Assembly (NCBI GenBank): GCA_019116025.1
Contig: DXCM01000072.1
Coordinates: 1-33,368 of the forward strand
Source: Candidatus Companilactobacillus pullicola
GTDB lineage: Bacteria; Bacillota; Bacilli; Lactobacillales; Lactobacillaceae
Direction: 5' to 3'
Length of the DNA: 33,368 nucleotides
The position numbers and the translations under genes are program-made. The notes below the pieces were generated by a model, which saw nothing but the letters and a program-made list of their open reading frames with translations, did not search any database and was not told where the DNA came from. The stretch's first letter is position 1. Every line of letters begins with the position of its first letter. Positions 612 to 33,368 of this stretch are shown piece after piece.

Positions 612-2225
612 TTGGATAGCTTTACTGACTTATTTTTATCGAAGTCCGAAATCGAAAAAATACAATTATTTAATAAAATAAAGTTAATAAGGACTAATCA
701 GCTTGCTAGCGCAGATCTTATCGGAACATATCGTAACCGAGACATTAAGGTAAAGGATATTAATTTACGAAAAGCTGCCTATCAAATGAATAAGAGTTAT
801 GGTAGCGTCTATAATACTTTTTTAGGAATTCAAGAGGATTTTAAACGAATTCTAAAGAAAAAGAAGTATTCGACTGAGGAAATGTTCGACGTTACTAGGG
901 ATGCTTATCATGCTTATTTAACGACTAATTCTGATGGTTATCTATTCTTAGATGCCATTGTAAAGGAAAAGGAAAGTTCATTTAAACATTTCTATCAAAC
1001 ACTTGATAGTAGTAAGGCAACTGTCTTACGTCATTTAAAGCCGATGAGGGGCTATTTGAAACGTTTTGGTGTCAGAATAGCTTATGAACCAATGCGCTTC
1101 GTAGGTGATGAGGAATCTATCCGTTTGGCTATCGCAGCATTGTATTGGAATGCTACTCGGGGATACGTATGGCCATTTGAAGATTTCACACAAAAGACTG
1201 CTTTTAAAGTTGTTGATATTGCGTTAGATAAATATCGTTTAAAACCAACAAACTATATTACTAAGACTTTCTATGCTTACGTCGTTATGGCTCATTTGTA
1301 TCGTATTATCGCTGGAAATCACGTAACTAACATGGATGCTTTGAATGTCATTAATTATCCTTTCCCTAACATTTTCGAAAGTGCCGGTCCAATGCTTGAG
1401 GGGGACACTGGTAGCGAAAAGGTTCGTGAATTGAAACGTGCCATTAAAGAAGATGTCAGCTATGAGGAGCAAATGTTCCAATCAGCCGATTTCTATATTC
1501 TTTTGATGTGTGTTCCAGCAACATTTGAGGTGTCAGAAGATTATCTTCAATCAGTATCAAAACAATTAGTCAGATATAATCCTTTATTTGCTAACTTTAT
1601 TGATGATTTCTTGGAATTGATTCCAATTGACGTTGAACAAACAATCTCTGATATGGCAATGTCACATAGTGAATTTTTGAGATATAAATATAATTTAACT
1701 ACATGTATTATTGGTGTATTGGCTTTGGATCATAATTATATTGAGATTCTTAACTTGTACTCTGGGTTTGGCGATGCCATCAGTAAATTGAATGATGAAG
1801 GACTGGAGAGTAAAATCTATTCAACTGTTCAACATTTGATGCTTCGTGATAAGTATCAATCATTGACTGGAAAAGCTAAACAAATTTCAGAGGCTATCTA
1901 TGCAATCGCCTATAGATTCTTCTCACTATATAATAAGAACATTCAGGTCAAAGTTTATCTTGAACTTGAATCATTCTTCTTAGTTTATTCAGATTTATCA
2001 GTGACATTACAATCATTGCCATACGCTAAGATCGTCAGTGATCCTAAAGAGGCTGATATTATTGTCACGGCCAATAGTGCTAATCCACCAGAAGACCAAA
2101 TGAATGATAATGTATGTATCTATCGTTGGATGTATAACGGTGTAGATGGACAAATGGGTGGCTTATTAAACTTAATTTACAAGATCTGGACTGAAGAAAA
2201 GGTTAACGAAAATCCAAATCTTTAG
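612..2225 (+). CDS. Mga-type helix-turn-helix transcriptional regulator
   Basis: This is a ~537-residue DNA-binding regulator of the Mga/AtxA type. The first ~90 residues resemble the HTH_Mga domain. Residues ~120-190 carry the second, characteristic Mga region, with SSKATVLRHLKPMRGYLKRF followed by GDEESIRLAIAALYW and a WPF motif. The last ~80 residues (IVSDPKEADIIVTANS) look like the EIIB-like domain that ends these proteins, often linked to PTS-dependent control. The frame is open from an ATG at 597, but a GGGGGTGGAG ribosome-binding site covers that ATG and lies 3-4 bases before an in-frame TTG at 612, so TTG is the better start. Mga proteins usually activate surface or metabolic genes; the target here is unknown. 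The next operon and the lectin/WxL surface gene are nearby candidates by position only. Confidence 0.75.
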   Translation: MDSFTDLFLSKSEIEKIQLFNKIKLIRTNQLASADLIGTYRNRDIKVKDINLRKAAYQMNKSYGSVYNTFLGIQEDFKRILKKKKYSTEEMFDVTRDAYHAYLTTNSDGYLFLDAIVKEKESSFKHFYQTLDSSKATVLRHLKPMRGYLKRFGVRIAYEPMRFVGDEESIRLAIAALYWNATRGYVWPFEDFTQKTAFKVVDIALDKYRLKPTNYITKTFYAYVVMAHLYRIIAGNHVTNMDALNVINYPFPNIFESAGPMLEGDTGSEKVRELKRAIKEDVSYEEQMFQSADFYILLMCVPATFEVSEDYLQSVSKQLVRYNPLFANFIDDFLELIPIDVEQTISDMAMSHSEFLRYKYNLTTCIIGVLALDHNYIEILNLYSGFGDAISKLNDEGLESKIYSTVQHLMLRDKYQSLTGKAKQISEAIYAIAYRFFSLYNKNIQVKVYLELESFFLVYSDLSVTLQSLPYAKIVSDPKEADIIVTANSANPPEDQMNDNVCIYRWMYNGVDGQMGGLLNLIYKIWTEEKVNENPNL

Positions 2226-8646: not shown

Positions 8647-8845
8647 GAATATTCCTTTCATATGACAAAATCACTCTACAAAGAAATCTTAACAAATAAA
8701 AGAATATTTAACATGCCATATAACTCTAAAAAATATTGTGTTTTTATATATAAAAAATAAATAAATAATACAAATAAATATTATTTATTTTGTGGAGATA
8801 AAAGTACTTTAAGAGAGTGAAATTAGATTGTGTGAAATATAATAG

Positions 8846-10436: not shown

Positions 10437-12614
10437 CTAGATAGAGCAGCTTTCGCACTCGTTACTGCCAATTTCATCGTTATTTTCGGTAAAGGTTCTA
10501 ACGTAATAAAGTGATTTGATGCCCTTATAGTAAGCATAGTTACGAAGAATACTTAAATCACGTGTTGTTTGTTTAGTATCGTCTGCAGCTTTCCAATCGT
10601 AAAGACCAGCAGGGATTTCTGAACGCATGAAGAGAGTCAAACTCATTCCTTGATCAATATGTTCTTGGGCTGAAGCATAAGTATCGATAACTTTTCGCAT
10701 ATCAGTGTCATAAGCTGACTTGTAATACTTGATAGTATCATTACTTAAGAATGGTGCTGGGAAGTATAATTTACCATTCTTCTTTTCCTGACGTTCTTCG
10801 ACCAATCTAGTAACAGGTTGTAAACTAGCACTGGTATTGTTGATGTAAGAGATAGAACCTGTTGGTGCAACAGCCATACGGTAGGCGTTATAAAGTCCAT
10901 CACGCATAACGTTGTCTTTTAGTTCTGACCAATCCTTTGGTTGAGGAATGAAGGTGTCATTGAAGAGTTCTTTGACAGCGTCAAGTTTAGGGGCGAAGCT
11001 CTTAGCTAGATACTTGTCGAAATAAGATCCGTCCGCATATTTTGATTTTTCAAAATTAGCAAAGGTTTCTTGGCGTTCTTTAGCAATATTATTGCTTTCA
11101 ACCAATGTCCAGTAGTTAAGGAGCATGAAGTAGACATTGATGAACTCAATTGCTTCAGGAGAGCCATATTCAAGATGATGGCAAGCCAAAAATGTGTGGA
11201 GTCCCATTGCACCTAAACCGATAGAATGGCTCATCTTGTTACCATTTGCTACTGGTGGTACAGCAGAGATATTTGAGGCGTCACTGACAAAAGTAAGAGC
11301 TCTAGTCATGGAACGAATTGATTGTCCGAAATCGGGACTTTGCATCATATTCAAAATGTTGGTTGAACCAAGGTTACAACTGACATCAGTTCCTAATTTA
11401 ACGTATTCTTGAGCATCATTTAGTTCTGAAGGTACTTGGACTTGTTGAATCTCAGTACAGAGGTTACTCATGATGATTTTACCGTCGATAGGATTATCAC
11501 GATTAACAGTGTCGATATTCAAGACGTAAGGATAACCTGATTCTTGTTGTAGCTTACTGATTTCGTCCTCTAGTTCACGAGCTTCGATCTTATATTTTTT
11601 GATACGATCGTCGTTAACCATGTTGTCGTATTCTTTAGTGATGTCGACGTATGAGAAAGGAACGCCGTAAACACGTTCAACTGAATAAGGACTGAATAGA
11701 TACATATCTTCATTATTACGAACTAATTCGTAATACTTGTCAGGTACGATAACACCTAATGAAAGTGTCTTTACACGGACTTTTTCATCGGCGTTTTCCT
11801 TTTTAGCAGATAGGAAGTCAATAATATCAGGATGGAAGACGTTTAGGTACACAGCGCCGGCACCTTGTCTTTGACCTAACTGGTTACTATAACTGAAACT
11901 GTCTTCTAGCAATTTCATAACGGGTAGAACACCTGATGAAGAGTTATCAACGCCCTTAATAGGTGAACCCGATTCACGCAAATTAGATAGCGTTATACCG
12001 ACACCACCACCGATTCGTGATAATTGGAGGGCACTATTGATAGTTCTACCGATACTATTCATGTCATCTGTAACTTGTAGTAGGAAACATGAAACGTATT
12101 CACCACGGCGTTTACGACCAGCATTAAGAAATGAAGGCGTTGCAGGTTGGTAGCGCTGAGCAATCATTTCAGTAGCTAAACTCTTAGCTAGTGCTTGATC
12201 GCCATTAGCGTATAAAAGAGCATTAAAAAGAATTCTCATTTCGTAATTTTCAAGGTATAAATCGCCATCATTGGTCTTTAATGCATATTGATTGTAAAAC
12301 TTGTATGCAGCCATGAAAGATTGAAATTGGAAATGTTGATCTAATAAGTAGTTATAAAGACTCTCGACAAATTCATGAGGATATTCATCAATAACTTCTT
12401 TTTCAATAAAATCGTTGTCGATCAAGTAGTCGATATGATCTTTGAAGGAATCAAATCTCTTAGTATTTGGTTCAACATTCTCAGCAAAAAAGGCTTTAAC
12501 AGCTTCCTTGTCTTTATTAAGTGGAATCTTATCATCCACGGGGATGTTGATCTCATTATTTAACTTAAAATAATGAAGTTTGGTTACATCTAGGTTATTT
12601 AATCCCAATTTCAT
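10437..12614 (-). CDS. nrdE: Class Ib ribonucleotide reductase alpha (catalytic) subunit
   Basis: A 725-residue NrdE that reduces ribonucleoside diphosphates. Diagnostic parts in order: the N-terminal region YFKLNNEINIPVDDKIPLNK; the redox cysteine in YVSCFLLQVTDDM; the radical-site motif NLCTEIQQ; the second redox cysteine in VSCNLGSTN; the MAVAPTGSISYINNTSAS loop; and the C-terminal CESC pair that accepts electrons from NrdH. The short N-terminus, lacking an ATP-cone, is typical of class Ib. The start overlaps the end of nrdI by 20 bp, and the ribosome-binding site (AAGAAAGTAG) is weak, which fits translational coupling. Confidence 0.97.
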   Translation of the reverse strand: MKLGLNNLDVTKLHYFKLNNEINIPVDDKIPLNKDKEAVKAFFAENVEPNTKRFDSFKDHIDYLIDNDFIEKEVIDEYPHEFVESLYNYLLDQHFQFQSFMAAYKFYNQYALKTNDGDLYLENYEMRILFNALLYANGDQALAKSLATEMIAQRYQPATPSFLNAGRKRRGEYVSCFLLQVTDDMNSIGRTINSALQLSRIGGGVGITLSNLRESGSPIKGVDNSSSGVLPVMKLLEDSFSYSNQLGQRQGAGAVYLNVFHPDIIDFLSAKKENADEKVRVKTLSLGVIVPDKYYELVRNNEDMYLFSPYSVERVYGVPFSYVDITKEYDNMVNDDRIKKYKIEARELEDEISKLQQESGYPYVLNIDTVNRDNPIDGKIIMSNLCTEIQQVQVPSELNDAQEYVKLGTDVSCNLGSTNILNMMQSPDFGQSIRSMTRALTFVSDASNISAVPPVANGNKMSHSIGLGAMGLHTFLACHHLEYGSPEAIEFINVYFMLLNYWTLVESNNIAKERQETFANFEKSKYADGSYFDKYLAKSFAPKLDAVKELFNDTFIPQPKDWSELKDNVMRDGLYNAYRMAVAPTGSISYINNTSASLQPVTRLVEERQEKKNGKLYFPAPFLSNDTIKYYKSAYDTDMRKVIDTYASAQEHIDQGMSLTLFMRSEIPAGLYDWKAADDTKQTTRDLSILRNYAYYKGIKSLYYVRTFTENNDEIGSNECESCSI

Positions 12615-21305: not shown

Positions 21306-21477
21306 GTCTTCCGCAAAAAATATGTGGGCCGCTGGAACGTAGCGGACGCGACTTGAAGCTAATAATTTTCCACTTCGTGTAAAATTATGGATCTTCAAGC
21401 TCGGTCTTCTACTAACCTTGCTTCGCAAGCTAAGTAGAATTTCGCTACTTAGGGCCCACATATTTTTTACTCCAGAC
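21306..21477 (+). repeat. 172-bp cloverleaf repeat, copy R1
   Basis: An imperfect outer stem (GTCT..CAGAC plus AAAAAATATGTGGGCC against GGCCCACATATTTTTT) encloses stem B GTAGCG/CGCTAC, stem C CTTGAAG/CTTCAAG carrying a long hairpin with a TTCG loop, and stem D TTCTACT/AGTAGAA carrying CTTGC-TTC-GCAAG. It has the same length and fold as R2 and R3 but different stem sequences. T runs on both exits mean it could also terminate transcription either way. It lies between locus A and the TetM-like gene. Confidence 0.85.
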
Positions 21478-21574: not shown

Positions 21575-23536
21575 CTAAGCAAGTTCATTTCCTTTTTCTA
21601 GATTTTCTAATGGATAAGTATAAGGTAGGTGAGCTGTTTGTGGGACTTGGTCCCAAGCTACGGGATAGCCGGCACCGTGGGCACAGAAAACGGAATCGGG
21701 GGTATTTTCTAGATCGGAAACGGGATGATATTGTGTTTTTTCTATAATTTCATCGGCGTTGTGGCAAGGGCGATAACCGAGAACGATGCATTCTAGTTGT
21801 CCTTGACCATGTGTGTAAGCTCGAACTTGTTTACTGTAGCCTTGCATCTGAGATACTGGAGCAATACCGGTTAAGATATTGGTCTGATTATTGGTTACTT
21901 CTGGTGTGTCAAAAGTTCCATTCATCTTTTGAATATCATTCATGGCACGACCTACTTGGTCTTGATCTACTTCTAGTCGGAATTGATACCATGGTTCTAA
22001 CAATTGGCAACCGTTAAATTGTTTAAGCATCATTAATCCTTGTCTGACAGCTCGCCAAGTTGCTTCACGGAAATCGCCACCGACTGAATGGACATTGCTT
22101 GCTCGACCACTGATCAGTGTTATTTTCATGTCAGTGATTGGGGCACCGATTAGGACTCCTAAATGTTCTTTAGCGCCTAAATTAGATAAAACTTGATGTT
22201 GCCAATTTTTACCGAGGGTGTCGAGATTACATTGAGAGTCAAAGGTTAATCCGCTACCTGGTTTATCGGGTTCTAATAATAGATGAACTTCGGCGTAATG
22301 ACGTAGGGGTTCAAAGTGACCGATACCCTCAACTTTTTTAGTGATAGTTTCTTTGTAGAGAATGCTGCCTTGACTGAAATCGACATCTAAATTAAATCTT
22401 TGTAGAAGTAATTGTTGAAGGACTTCTAATTGGACTTCACCCATTATTTGTACACGGATTTCTTCAAGTTGATTGGACCAAGTTACACGAAGTTGAGGAT
22501 CTTCATCTTCTAGTTGTCTCAGAGCAGTTAAACATGTGTGAATATCGTTATCTTTAGGATCAACAGTATAGGTGAGGACTGGTTGAATTGTTGGATCACT
22601 GGCGTTAATTTCTTTGCCTAAACCTAATCCAGGAAAAGTTTCAGTTAAACCAGTGACAGCACAGATTCCTCCAGCAGCGACTTCTGGTTGTAATTCAAAT
22701 TTAGAACCATTGTAGATTCGTACTTGATTGGCTTTTTGATCTTTGAACAAAACATCCTTATTATGTAAAATTCCGCCGGTCACTTTGATCCAAGTTAAGC
22801 GTTCGTCGTTTTCATCATGAGAGATTTTAAAAACTTTGGCTCCAAAAGTGTCATCATATGTAGATTCGTTTGTCCAGTTCTCAAAGCCTTGAAGAAACTC
22901 ATCAATTCCAGAAATTTTCAAAGCTGAACCAAAGTAACAAGGGAAAATTTGACGTTTTTGAATCATGTGACGAACAGTATCGTCCGATAAAGTGCCGGAT
23001 TCTAAAAATTGATTGAGGATGTCATCGTCTTGAAGGGCAATCTCTTCGTAAATATCATCCGTTAAATCGTTAAAAGCTATACAACCAGGAGAAAGTTTAT
23101 TCTGTAATTCTTCCAGTACTTGAGTTTGGTTGACACCAGCAGCGTCAATTTTATTAACAAAAATAAAAGTTGGTATCTGATAGTTTTGGAGTAGGTTCCA
23201 AAGCGTTTTGGTGTAACCTTGAACACCATCAGTGGCAGATACGACCAAAATAGCATAATCAAGGACACTTAAAACTTGTTCAGTTTGGGATGCAAAGTCG
23301 ACGTGTCCGGGAGTATCCAAGAGTGTTAATTTCAAATTATCGTATTGTAAGTTAGCTTGATGAGAGAAGATAGTGATACCACGCTTTTTTTCAAGATCAT
23401 CTGAGTCCAAAAAAGCATCGCCGTTATCGACACGACCGAGTTTACGCAATTGACCAGCTTTGTAGAGTAAAGCCTCAGAAAGAGTAGTCTTGCCGGCATC
23501 AACATGTGCCACGATTCCAGTTACAATGTGTTTCAT
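21575..23536 (-). CDS. TetM-like ribosomal-protection GTPase (EF-G family)
   Basis: A 653-residue translational GTPase. G1 is AHVDAGKTT near the N-terminus, then the switch region KKRGITIFSHQA, G3 DTPGHVDFASQTEQVLSVLD and G4 NKID. The overall order and the absence of the EF-G insert match TetM/TetO-type ribosomal-protection proteins, slightly longer here than TetM (~639). Many lactobacilli carry chromosomal paralogues of this kind, so resistance to tetracycline should not be assumed. The frame is open to 23617, but those codons lie in repeat R2, and GAGAGGAG stands before the ATG at 23536. The gene lies between direct repeats R1 and R2, and R2 may form part of its 5' leader. Confidence 0.85.
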   Translation of the reverse strand: MKHIVTGIVAHVDAGKTTLSEALLYKAGQLRKLGRVDNGDAFLDSDDLEKKRGITIFSHQANLQYDNLKLTLLDTPGHVDFASQTEQVLSVLDYAILVVSATDGVQGYTKTLWNLLQNYQIPTFIFVNKIDAAGVNQTQVLEELQNKLSPGCIAFNDLTDDIYEEIALQDDDILNQFLESGTLSDDTVRHMIQKRQIFPCYFGSALKISGIDEFLQGFENWTNESTYDDTFGAKVFKISHDENDERLTWIKVTGGILHNKDVLFKDQKANQVRIYNGSKFELQPEVAAGGICAVTGLTETFPGLGLGKEINASDPTIQPVLTYTVDPKDNDIHTCLTALRQLEDEDPQLRVTWSNQLEEIRVQIMGEVQLEVLQQLLLQRFNLDVDFSQGSILYKETITKKVEGIGHFEPLRHYAEVHLLLEPDKPGSGLTFDSQCNLDTLGKNWQHQVLSNLGAKEHLGVLIGAPITDMKITLISGRASNVHSVGGDFREATWRAVRQGLMMLKQFNGCQLLEPWYQFRLEVDQDQVGRAMNDIQKMNGTFDTPEVTNNQTNILTGIAPVSQMQGYSKQVRAYTHGQGQLECIVLGYRPCHNADEIIEKTQYHPVSDLENTPDSVFCAHGAGYPVAWDQVPQTAHLPYTYPLENLEKGNELA

Positions 23537-23573
23537 GAATATTTCTCCTCTCAAATTTGGGTTAAGGATGCCC

Positions 23574-23745
23574 GTCGGCAGTAGAGAATCTGTGGGCCAC
23601 TGGAACGTGGTGGACACGACTTGAAGCTAATAATTTTACACTTCGTGCAAAATTATGGATCTCCAAGCTCGGTCTTCTGGTAACCTTGCTGCGCAAGCTA
23701 ACCAGAACTTCACCACTGAGGGCCCACAGATTTTCTACTGTCGAC
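23574..23745 (+). repeat. 172-bp cloverleaf repeat, copy R2
   Basis: The outer stem is GTCGGCAGTAGAGAATC... against its complement at 23721-23745, with two G-T pairs instead of G-C. Stem B is GTGGTG/CACCAC and stem D TTCTGGT/ACCAGAA. Homology with R3 continues downstream to GTAATCAA (23801-23808), through an AATTGCAGTATTT block, so the whole unit is nearer 240 bp. It lies directly upstream of the TetM-like gene, in the same orientation as R1. Confidence 0.88.
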
Positions 23746-24105
23746 TGTATTTCTGTTTCTATTGTTATTTATTAAAATTGCAGTATTTGAATTGTTTTAT
23801 GTAATCAAGTAATGATTATGATTTTTGGTTCAGAAAAATTATATAAGTAATGGAATGGGATATTAGTCCGAAACAACAAGCTTAATTGGTCTTAGATGTG
23901 AAATTATATTTATCGATTCCTAAAATAGAAAAGAAACCAGATTAAAGAATTCATCTCGGATAAAACAAATGAAGTACTCTCTAGTCCGAATAGTGCCCAT
24001 AGCGTTCCAACAGCATTCCCAATTTTCGCGGAGGACGGCAGTCACTACACTATAATCAATCAAACAGAACTTATAGTACATTTTACTATCACTTTTGTCT
24101 AAAAA
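23746..24105. other. Intergenic stretch between R2 and locus B
   Basis: No gene is seen. The first ~60 bp are the R2 downstream homology. Positions 23986-24041 are a remnant of the cloverleaf repeat. The remaining sequence is AT-rich with no element that I can name. Confidence 0.5.
23986..24041 (-). repeat. Truncated cloverleaf repeat (R4 subfamily)
   Basis: CCCATAGCGTTCCAACAGCATTCCCAATTTT matches the last bases of the window (33328-33368) in the same orientation. Read on the minus strand, its beginning TGCCGTCCTCCGC matches the left end of R1 (TGCCGTCTTCCGC). The right-hand part of the unit is missing. Confidence 0.75.
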
Positions 24106-31512: not shown

Positions 31513-31758
31513 AAATCCTCCTGGTGGCACTATTTACCCCAGGGATAATAATGCCTTTTTATTATTTGTGTGCAATGATATTTATTCTTAAGCGCATGAT
31601 CTCAATACCATCCTTTCAATAAACTGTATAAATAATAACATGTAAGTTGTCTTCACGCTATATAATAGGTAGATAACGTTTACTTAATTAATATTTGAAT
31701 TAGAAATTGACTATATAGAGTATAATTACAAATATATTTATATTTGGGGGGATTAATT

Positions 31759-32043
31759 ATGAATGCTAATACAGAAGAGTTAATGAAATTAGTTGATGAA
31801 GCTGCTCAAGAAGAGGTTGTGAAAAATGATAAGAATCTTTATGCGGCAGTGGTTAAGGCTTATAAAGAATTGAATGAAGATCAGAATATCACGATTATCA
31901 GTGGCAATTTAAGTGGGGAAATCAATCGTTATTTGTTAACACATGATTATAAGGCACCAAAATCAGTTGTCGATTTAGGCCAGAAGTTACAGAAGTATGC
32001 GGCCAACCGTTGGGGACATGTTAATCCGATTAACTTGGGATAG
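31759..32043 (+). CDS. Small conserved-looking protein of unknown function
   Basis: A 94-residue cytoplasmic, mostly helical protein that I do not recognise. It has an acidic N-terminal helix (TEELMKLVDEAAQEEVV), a central ISGNLSGEINRYLL and a C-terminal KLQKYAANRWGHVNP. The frame can open at a TTG 15 bases earlier, but GGGGGG (31746-31751) lies 7 bases before the ATG and is the likely ribosome-binding site. A TATAAT hexamer at 31721-31726 marks a probable promoter, although the nearest -35-like TTGAAT is 20 bp away. The gene is single and ends at a long hairpin repeat. Confidence 0.65.
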   Translation: MNANTEELMKLVDEAAQEEVVKNDKNLYAAVVKAYKELNEDQNITIISGNLSGEINRYLLTHDYKAPKSVVDLGQKLQKYAANRWGHVNPINLG

Positions 32044-32050
32044 AAATGAA

Positions 32051-32117
32051 AACAGCGACTATTAAGTATTCAAGGTATTTTTACATATCCTGAATACTTA
32101 ATAGTCGCTGTTATTTT
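32051..32117. repeat. ATTAAGTATT hairpin repeat, copy 2 (terminator)
   Basis: A perfect 22-bp stem (32051-32072 with 32091-32112) starting AACAGCGACTATTAAG, with an 18-base apex that pairs a little further, then a T-rich end. It lies between two convergent small genes and can end both. It shares the ATTAAGTATT core with copies at 16691 and 33100 but has a different outer stem (AGCGAC/GTCGCT). Confidence 0.9.
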
Positions 32118-32126
32118 CTTCATAAA

Positions 32127-32327
32127 TTATAAACGTAAATCAGTTTTTTTCTTAGGCTTTGGTTTATGGAATAAACTTAGTAAGAAACAAATAATAGCTG
32201 AAATAATAAAAATAGCATCGATCAAGCCCCAGATTTGTTTAGTGGAGTGATCGATAAAAATAATTCCGACAATTAAAAGAATAACGCCGTACCAAAAATT
32301 CATGGTCTTGTAAAATTGTTTATTCAT
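32127..32327 (-). CDS. Small two-helix membrane protein
   Basis: A 66-residue protein with two hydrophobic segments (FWYGVILLIVGIIFI and LIDAIFIISAIICFLLSLF) and a basic tail (KPKPKKKTDLRL) that should face the cytoplasm. I cannot assign a family or function. The frame is open 16 codons earlier, but AGGAGA lies 6 bases before the ATG at 32327 and the upstream part looks untranslated. It is convergent with the 94-residue gene. Confidence 0.6.
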   Translation of the reverse strand: MNKQFYKTMNFWYGVILLIVGIIFIDHSTKQIWGLIDAIFIISAIICFLLSLFHKPKPKKKTDLRL

Positions 32328-32831: not shown

Positions 32832-33003
32832 GTCGGTAGTAAAAAATCTGTGGGCCGCTGGAACGTGGTGGACACGACTTAGAGCTAATAATTCCGCACT
32901 TTGTGCGTAATCATGGATCTCTAAGCTCGGTCTTATACTAACCTTGCTTCGCAAGCTAAGTATAATTTCACCACAGAGGGCCCACAGATTTTTTACTACC
33001 GAC
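32832..33003 (+). repeat. 172-bp cloverleaf repeat, copy R3
   Basis: The most regular copy: the outer stem is a perfect 25-bp inverted repeat (32832-32856 with 32979-33003, starting GTCGGTAGTAAAAAATC). Inside are stem B GTGGTG/CACCAC, stem C CTTAGAG/CTCTAAG with a CGCAC-TTT-GTGCG hairpin, and stem D TTATACT/AGTATAA with CTTGC-TTC-GCAAG. Homology to R2 runs on to GTAATCAA at 33065-33072. No transposase and no clear target-site duplication are seen. Confidence 0.9.
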
Positions 33004-33099
33004 TAGATTTTTAGTTCTAATATTATTGAGTAAATTGCAGTATTTAGAGATTTTTTAGTGCTGTGTAATCAAATAGGAATTTTAATTCTTAAATAAAAT

Positions 33100-33166
33100 A
33101 ACAGCTTCCATTAAGTATTCAAGACATGTAGATGTGCTTGAATTTCTTAATAGAAGCTGTTTTTTG
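33100..33166 (+). repeat. ATTAAGTATT hairpin repeat, copy 3 (terminator-like)
   Basis: Outer stem ACAGCTTC/GAAGCTGT, middle ATTAAG/CTTAAT, inner CAAGACAT/ATGTGCTTG, then a T tract. No gene lies directly before it in this window, which suggests the element moves or is copied on its own. Confidence 0.8.
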
Positions 33167-33210
33167 TTTAGTATTTAGATTTTAAAATGATTGATAAAAA
33201 GCCTGGTTTA

Positions 33211-33368
33211 GTATGGAGCTACGAGAAAATTGACTTAGCTATGAAATCATTGTTACCGGCTTTGCCGGTTACAATGAGGCCGACTTCGAAGATCCATTAT
33301 TTTGCACGAAGTGTAAAATAATTAGCTCCGAATCGCGCCCATAGCGTTCCAACAGCATTCCCAATTTT
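33211..33368 (-). repeat. Cloverleaf repeat, inverted divergent copy R4 (cut by window end)
   Basis: Read on the minus strand this has the same layout as R1-R3: outer stem AAAATTG/CAATTTT, then GGAAC, stem B GCTATG/CATAGC, a GCTAAT junction, an arm with TTTTACACTTCGTG, ATGGATC, and stem D CATTGT/ACAATG carrying CCGGC-AAA-GCCGG. Its right end CTCCATACTAAA matches CTCCAGACTAAA of R1. About 10-15 bases at the left end lie beyond the window. Confidence 0.8.

Follow-up and report, generated by a model that had tools for sequence, protein, structure and literature searches.

The repeats found in this Companilactobacillus genome are best read as a non-autonomous family of the REPIN/MITE-like kind, without a protein gene, whose folded-DNA ends act as recognition sites for an enzyme working in trans; we consider this reading moderately probable. 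Each complete element carries two inward-facing ends of 120-172 nt, usually of different classes and each folding into a Y; we propose that single-stranded DNA, or an extruded cruciform, adopts this fold, that its three-way junction is bound by a recombinase or transposase supplied in trans, and that the element is then copied or cut and inserted in intergenic DNA. Three points of this scheme are our inference: the reading of the fold as DNA by a protein, the action of this protein in trans and the chemistry of the insertion. A bolder proposal, that the family is a distinct class of bacterial mobile DNA, limited within the genomes searched to Lactobacillaceae, with convergent single-strand three-way-junction ends usually of two classes and a recombinase new to science, is possible and in our judgement rather doubtful.

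The Y-structures of the window

The window, i.e., the whole stretch of 33,368 nucleotides that was analysed, contains three 172-bp units on the plus strand, R1 (21306-21477), R2 (23574-23745) and R3 (32832-33003), which were found again at the coordinates given by the first-pass annotation and with the stems quoted there. That annotation had treated the 172-bp unit as a whole element; it is instead one end, that is one half, of a larger element, and R3 forms such a pair with the divergent copy R4. The shape, originally described as a cloverleaf, is a Y: the outer stem is followed by an internal loop, GGAAC/TG and asymmetric, then by stem B and by a three-way junction from which two arms depart, a long one built on stem C and a shorter one built on stem D, each capped by an apical hairpin. 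R3 is a class I Y-structure, recognised by its fold and by a model match, and forms the left end of the R3/R4 element. Its outer stem P1 joins 32832-32856 (5' arm) to 32979-33003 (3' arm) over 25 bp; the GGAAC loop lies at 32860-32864, and stem B (P2), identified by fold and covariation, has its 5' arm at 32865-32870 and its 3' arm at 32969-32974. The long arm P3 (32871-32932) is made of stem C, pairing 32871-32884 with 32919-32932, and of an apical hairpin at 32888-32914, while the short arm P4 (32933-32965) is made of stem D, pairing 32933-32939 with 32959-32965, and of an apical hairpin at 32943-32955. Folded as RNA, R3 reaches -85.1 kcal/mol (z -11.5) and, folded as DNA, -51.1 kcal/mol (z -12.7); in both cases, none of 200 shuffled sequences was as stable. 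As regards stem C, the perfect forms quoted earlier do exist, but they are a minority; the usual form, CTTGAAG/CTCCAAG, carries one mismatch, at a position unpaired in 22 of the 29 rows of the own-genome alignment.

Downstream of R3, an AT-rich spacer on the plus strand (33004-33222), with a hairpin near 33090-33165, leads to R4, a class II-like Y core on the minus strand (33223-33362, the extent of the covariance model match) that constitutes the right end of the element; the element continues beyond the contig end, by which R4 is truncated at position 33368. R4 does not share the outer stem of R1-R3, as had been claimed: no like pairing is found, and in its place a 7-bp stem appears when R4 is folded as DNA and another pairing, a weak one, when it is folded as RNA. 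It was also observed that in R4 (33223-33368) the 5' arm of the outer stem is of class II and the 3' arm class III-like, as if two ends had recombined.

The R2 element (plus strand, 23556-24059, about 504 bp) has R2 itself, a class I Y-structure recognised from sequence and model match, as its left end, and a class II right-end remnant on the minus strand (23983-24059), the fold of which is mostly deleted and where the model gives no match; the corresponding place is without an element in two relatives. The element is flanked by TCAAA at 23551-23555 and again at 24060-24064, a possible 5-bp target duplication when compared with the empty sites of the relatives G311 and G316. The R2 match overlaps the longest reading of the open reading frame 21575-23617 by 27 bp; this frame has a later ATG start. 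R1, in turn, is a single class I Y-structure (model match) for which no partner end was detected in the window; it has a counterpart at the corresponding place in G311, and the two differ, by eye, by two matched double changes and by several unmatched changes too.

A terminator-like hairpin with ATTAAGTATTCAAG was noticed alone at 32061-32102, after the gene at 31744-32043, and again at 33110-33160 within the R3/R4 spacer; its pattern gives 3 matches against 0.08 expected, and it may be a separate repeat picked up by the elements. The site after the same gene exists in three states: a convergent pair in G311 (L277:12006-12467), one copy in G316 (L278:2890-3029) and, in the window, the hairpin only (32044-32128).

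Covariation and the level of pairing

The proposal of a conserved fold, with fixed junction bases and varying stems, was borne out by the own-genome and the multi-genus alignments, in which both fold and covariation are directly seen. The first of these (A2) aligns 29 own-genome copies by plain MAFFT and uses the fold of R3 as its structure. Of its 1497 cells, 97.1% are paired, and two-sided changes occur at 20 of 52 pairs; none of 500 shuffles reaches any of the five observed measures, and when the 3' partners are slid, two-sided changes are left at just 0-4 pairs. A second alignment (A4) comprises 100 matches from 67 sources, 91 of them distinct and belonging to several genera, fitted to a covariance model of this same structure; here, 49 of the 52 pairs change on both sides among the 91 distinct copies. 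Two-sided changes in A4 amount to 1118 cells versus 313.5 in shuffles, and the covariation score is 0.581 versus 0.150 for shuffled and 0.047-0.087 for slid alignments; one of the five measures, the number of further pair types, is weaker (123 versus 116.3, with 17 of 500 shuffles as high). Many stem pairs make use of three or four Watson-Crick types, both in A4 and in a third alignment (A3) of 76 of 90 rows, the 14 weakest (at most 28.8 bits, with E of 0.00027 or worse) having been left out.

Covariation this strong is normally taken as a sign of functional RNA, and the fold had been suggested to be selected either as an RNA or as a single-stranded DNA substrate; the DNA option is the one favoured, G-U being rarer than A-C, at the expense of the RNA option. 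The 4048 cells of A4 include 3880 Watson-Crick pairs, 34 G-U (0.8%), 69 A-C (1.7%) and 65 others; in A3 there are 3451 Watson-Crick, 36 G-U, 78 A-C and 53 other cells, and G-U occurs at 18 column pairs, A-C at 15. By comparison, 15 tRNAs of the same loci, a small control in which detection itself favours paired stems, give 312 Watson-Crick, 17 G-U (5.2%) and no A-C among 329 cells. Because A-C on one strand is G-U on the other, neither strand behaves as an RNA strand and the wobble pairs are without strand asymmetry, which points to a pairing kept at the DNA level, not in one RNA strand, by selection or by arm-to-arm copying.

A structured RNA, or an RNA-processing signal such as a terminator, an RNase III site or a regulatory RNA, spreading with the repeat, would be in keeping with the very stable fold, with the A/T tracts at the base of the outer stem, with the terminator-like hairpin of the spacer and with intergenic positions that often follow shortly after stop codons. 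Against it stand the wobble counts just given, an orientation relative to genes that is not fixed and the inversion of the ends, by which one transcript has the sense junction of one end only. As to orientation, 29 elements from eight own-genome stretches and the window, compared with open reading frames of at least 100 codons, lie between tandem genes in 18 cases, convergent genes in seven and divergent genes in two, the remaining two being at an edge. We hold an RNA to be quite improbable. Since the wobble-pair test points to folded DNA, those who discover RNAs by covariation may take the family as a caution and as material on which to try their methods.

The symmetry of the G-U and A-C counts is likewise produced by arm copying, as expected of an ordinary double-stranded MITE in which a DDE transposase would read short terminal repeats and the arms would be kept complementary passively by palindrome-templated repair. 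Such a MITE is also compatible with the fact that unpaired columns are on average just slightly more conserved than paired ones (mean information 1.17 versus 0.99 bits; 11 of 29 unpaired versus 24 of 84 paired columns are at least 90% conserved). Passive copying alone, however, leaves unexplained the near-invariance, in all genera sampled, of the unpaired GGAAC (97-100% conservation in 91 distinct copies) and of other unpaired bases, as well as the retention of a three-way junction over a simple hairpin; this explanation is, in our opinion, unlikely, and it is taken up again below where terminal repeats and target sites are described.

Paired ends, insertion and distribution

The convergent pairing of the Y-structures was directly observed in three genomes. 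Among listed neighbours at most 800 bp apart, 27 of 27 are convergent in the own genome (where 143 of 148 matches were used, the five weakest being left out), 26 of 26 in G258 and 22 of 22 in G302 (leaving out one overlapping opposite-strand pair, 749564/749631), which makes 75 of 75; among listed copies, 49 of 93 in G302 and three of 55 in G258 are without a partner. Convergence is a rule of the complete elements in these three genomes, not of every neighbour. Same-strand close neighbours were observed in other genera, in G135 (C1:84310 and 84483, to 84600), G038 (C11:18318 and 18645, to 18768) and G080 (C5:138477 and 138658, to 138768; C4:201760 and 202101, to 202462), and same-strand neighbours also occur in G213 (C8:49762 and 50666).

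The elements are roughly 500-600 bp long in the own genome and about 840 bp in G258, where most pairs join two matches of unequal length, about 123 nt and about 135 nt; the end units measure 120-172 nt, each with a three-way junction. An alignment of 19 own-genome elements revealed modular ends in various combinations (class I, P1 ..GTGGGCC; class II, ..GGGAATGC; class III, ..GAAAATTTGG). The two ends of an element usually differ in class, with one II-II case among 20 pairs compared, and are 58-78% identical (mean 63%, 20 pairs), while corresponding ends are 84% and 81% identical; L202, cut by a contig end, was left out of both the alignment and the comparison of ends. The presence of two classes may have a simple reason: if the inverted ends were identical they would fold together as a single long hairpin, of a kind that cells tend to delete, and differing ends may avoid this. 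In PMC3733652, a remark of a similar kind is made on heterodimers. The tag at the foot of the Y is mostly CCGTC in own-genome copies; in the G258 flanks looked at, it is CCGAC or CCGCC. The longest complete open reading frame in the spacers encodes 49 amino acids in 21 own-genome elements and 78 in 20 from G258, none exceeding 78 codons in these 41 elements. At L288:16610-16740, a class I element is seemingly nested in an older class II element, between GCTGTTGGA and GGTTCTTACTC.

Presence and absence of elements at the same site were directly observed in related genomes: the site corresponding to the R2 element is empty in G311 and G316, and the elements at C96:88635 and C16:6351 are likewise absent from both. 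Since three occupied sites are empty in two relatives, the element moves or has moved, and insertion is supported. The repeats that flank the three sites differ, being TCAAA (5 bp) at the R2 element, AGATAAG (7-8 bp) at one of the others and an A-run at the remaining one; at a fourth site, no clear repeat was made out. Duplications of 5-8 bp at two sites are what a conventional MITE would leave, as are the weak terminal repeats recognised by eye at both ends, outside the folds; yet in 20 G258 elements, no target duplication at a fixed offset rises above a shuffled-pair control. Imperfect terminal repeats are common to the 20 whole G258 elements, at the edges of the conserved blocks and outside the folds, while in the own-genome copies the element ends are blurred and the terminal repeats, judged by eye, weak. 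A known MITE whose simple terminal repeats would explain the pairing, which the first-pass annotation had named as a possible objection, is not what was found, weak repeats lying outside the folds leaving the inner pairing unexplained.

Many of the differences between relatives represent decay of old copies, through internal deletions in relatives and in plasmids; the comparison of plasmids for empty sites revealed internal deletions only. The plasmid L302, nearly identical to L239, is without the Y-structure at L239:3983-4158 and shares 8 bp at the join, a state that, judging from the sequence, resembles a palindrome deletion between short repeats. The 29 elements compared with genes above are intergenic; two of them touch an open reading frame, i.e., the R2 match and another overlapping an unsupported 312-bp frame. 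In the own-genome contigs C4, C48, C56, C59, C76 and C89, a copy lies no more than a few hundred bases from one of the contig ends, and these repeats may therefore break short-read assemblies.

The distribution of the family was established by covariance model searches, as the first-pass annotation had recommended. In the own genome, where model R1 scored 150 of 1330 candidates, 148 matches have an E-value of 1 or better and 143 are below 1e-7, which corresponds to at least 143 copies; R4 is not among the matches listed. Of 301 Lactobacillaceae genomes, 66 carry the family according to the same model, and they belong to 12 of 40 genera. Within the genus, with up to 90 candidates scored per genome, 22 of 36 genomes match (one of them eight times, the other 21 between 10 and 88 times) and 14 have none, so that copies within a single genus range from zero to at least 143. 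Model R2, the wider-set covariance model, used with strict filters and nine candidates scored per genome at the order level, matches 25 of 395 genomes and seven of 80 genera, all of them Lactobacillaceae; three weak matches to it are found in G102. Absence by model R1 is not always true absence, because G320, empty by this model, has a diverged relative with the same layout, different arms and no GGAAC loop in the alignment. Its five matches, spread over 13 kb of L280, are at 1473-1615(+), 1974-2115(-), 8699-8841(+), 10580-10718(+) and 11618-11749(-), and include one close convergent pair. In 12.5 kb of G003 (L281), no model match was obtained, and the three inverted repeats given by a palindrome search are all without the Y layout.

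Outside chromosomes, 26 plasmid records (25 + 1) from Lactiplantibacillus, Ligilactobacillus and Pediococcus match by DNA, and the fold was confirmed by the model in all six plasmid loci that were fetched. Phage records gave no DNA match to the G258 element; 25 viral contigs have an 18-base motif in common, and the fold was detected by model R2 in none of 27 viral loci. A 15-base contig scan was too unspecific and yielded mostly unrelated matches, but Companilactobacillus crustorum and C. kimchii were recognised through it as carriers of the unit.

Proposed mobilising enzyme and relation to known systems

No transposase or autonomous copy was found. Gene-sized convergent pairs are absent, among the matches listed, at 700-3000 bp in the own genome and at 800-5000 bp in G258 and G302. 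In G181, two convergent copies 974 bp apart (L180:408-1627) enclose a gene with a GIY-YIG domain (897-1199), and a ribosomal protein S2 gene follows it outside the pair; judging by gene order, the GIY-YIG gene probably belongs to the host and the copies on either side of it are separate ones. When viral contigs were scanned with this gene, 15 relatives came up. The Y1 transposase domain (Y1_Tnp, PF01797) is found in 12 of 22 carrier and in six of 14 non-carrier genomes of the genus, some of the matches being fragments or containing stops, and 10 of the 22 carriers, C. crustorum (G075, strain JCM 15951 by its copy coordinates) among them, have no match at all; a Y1/RAYT transposase was rejected as the mobiliser on account of this lack of association between Y1_Tnp and element carriage.

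The family is abundant in food bacteria, with at least 143 copies in one genome, and is without a matching Rfam entry. If an enzyme reading the junction were found, it would represent a new way of defining transposon ends and possibly a tool for structure-guided DNA insertion. Rfam families do not reach the gathering threshold on the element sequences, 5S rRNA being the only match in the window and all matches elsewhere being below threshold; consistent with the opinion that no described family has this shape, none was recognised in the literature, a search mostly without subscription papers, or in Rfam.

The REP, REPIN and BIME repeats are, according to PMC3733652 and PMC6006769, high-copy intergenic palindromes arranged in inverted pairs, often of two subtypes, and the Y elements resemble them in being high-copy, intergenic and organised in inverted, often heterotypic pairs. 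REPs are described in PMC3733652 as 20-40-bp hairpins tagged GTAG or CGTC, the CGTC families having no known transposase, and Firmicutes have no occurrence in its main text; the Y ends, by contrast, measure 120-172 nt, contain a three-way junction and carry CCGTC, CCGAC or CCGCC in place of a GTAG/CGTC foot tag. The possibility that the family is simply a REPIN, with an IS200-like tyrosine transposase of the RAYT group as its mobiliser, draws on this common layout of inverted palindrome heterodimers (PMC3733652 and PMC6006769); it is contradicted by units several times the length of a REP and by a foot tag that varies between genomes. With the Y1_Tnp counts of carriers and non-carriers set against it as well, and no association of the Y elements with Y1 transposases, this was already disfavoured and is very improbable.

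Among the MITE-like repeats of Firmicutes, bcr1, BOX and RUP are non-coding, intergenic, foldable, present in many copies and probably moved in trans. The Y elements share with these repeats, and with Efa-1, the non-coding, intergenic, foldable and multicopy character and a probable movement in trans, and differ in that the Y model is unmatched outside Lactobacillaceae (395 order-level genomes, strict filters). A survey of stem-loops in 40 genomes reports (PMC2267715) only a genic family for Lactobacillus johnsonii and, for E. faecalis, the 163-nt Efa-1, a pair of adjacent stem-loops forming a double hairpin; the Y elements differ from Efa-1, so described, by their three-way junction, their DNA-level covariation and their two distinct ends. 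With MITEs derived from DDE transposons they have in common the absence of coding capacity, the spacer reading frames being of at most 78 amino acids.

Sites defined by a fold are represented by the attC sites of integrons, in which, as is generally known, the fold of single-stranded DNA defines the recombination site with few conserved bases; attC is one imperfect hairpin, found in cassette arrays and used by the integron integrase. The Y ends, proposed as folded-DNA sites, resemble attC in this respect, and differ from it in having a three-way junction in place of the one imperfect hairpin. IS200/IS605 elements have short hairpins that do not stand in inverted orientation to one another. Recognition of their ends, as stated in PMC6006769, relies on secondary structures that single-stranded DNA forms in subterminal position; these ends are thus read as folds, as is proposed for the Y elements, with which, however, the tnpA (Y1) genes do not co-occur. 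In the absence of any match in Rfam or in the literature, and since REP/REPIN/BIME come nearest, the family is therefore filed as a so-far undescribed variant of non-autonomous palindromic mobile elements, with REP/REPIN/BIME as the nearest described kind.
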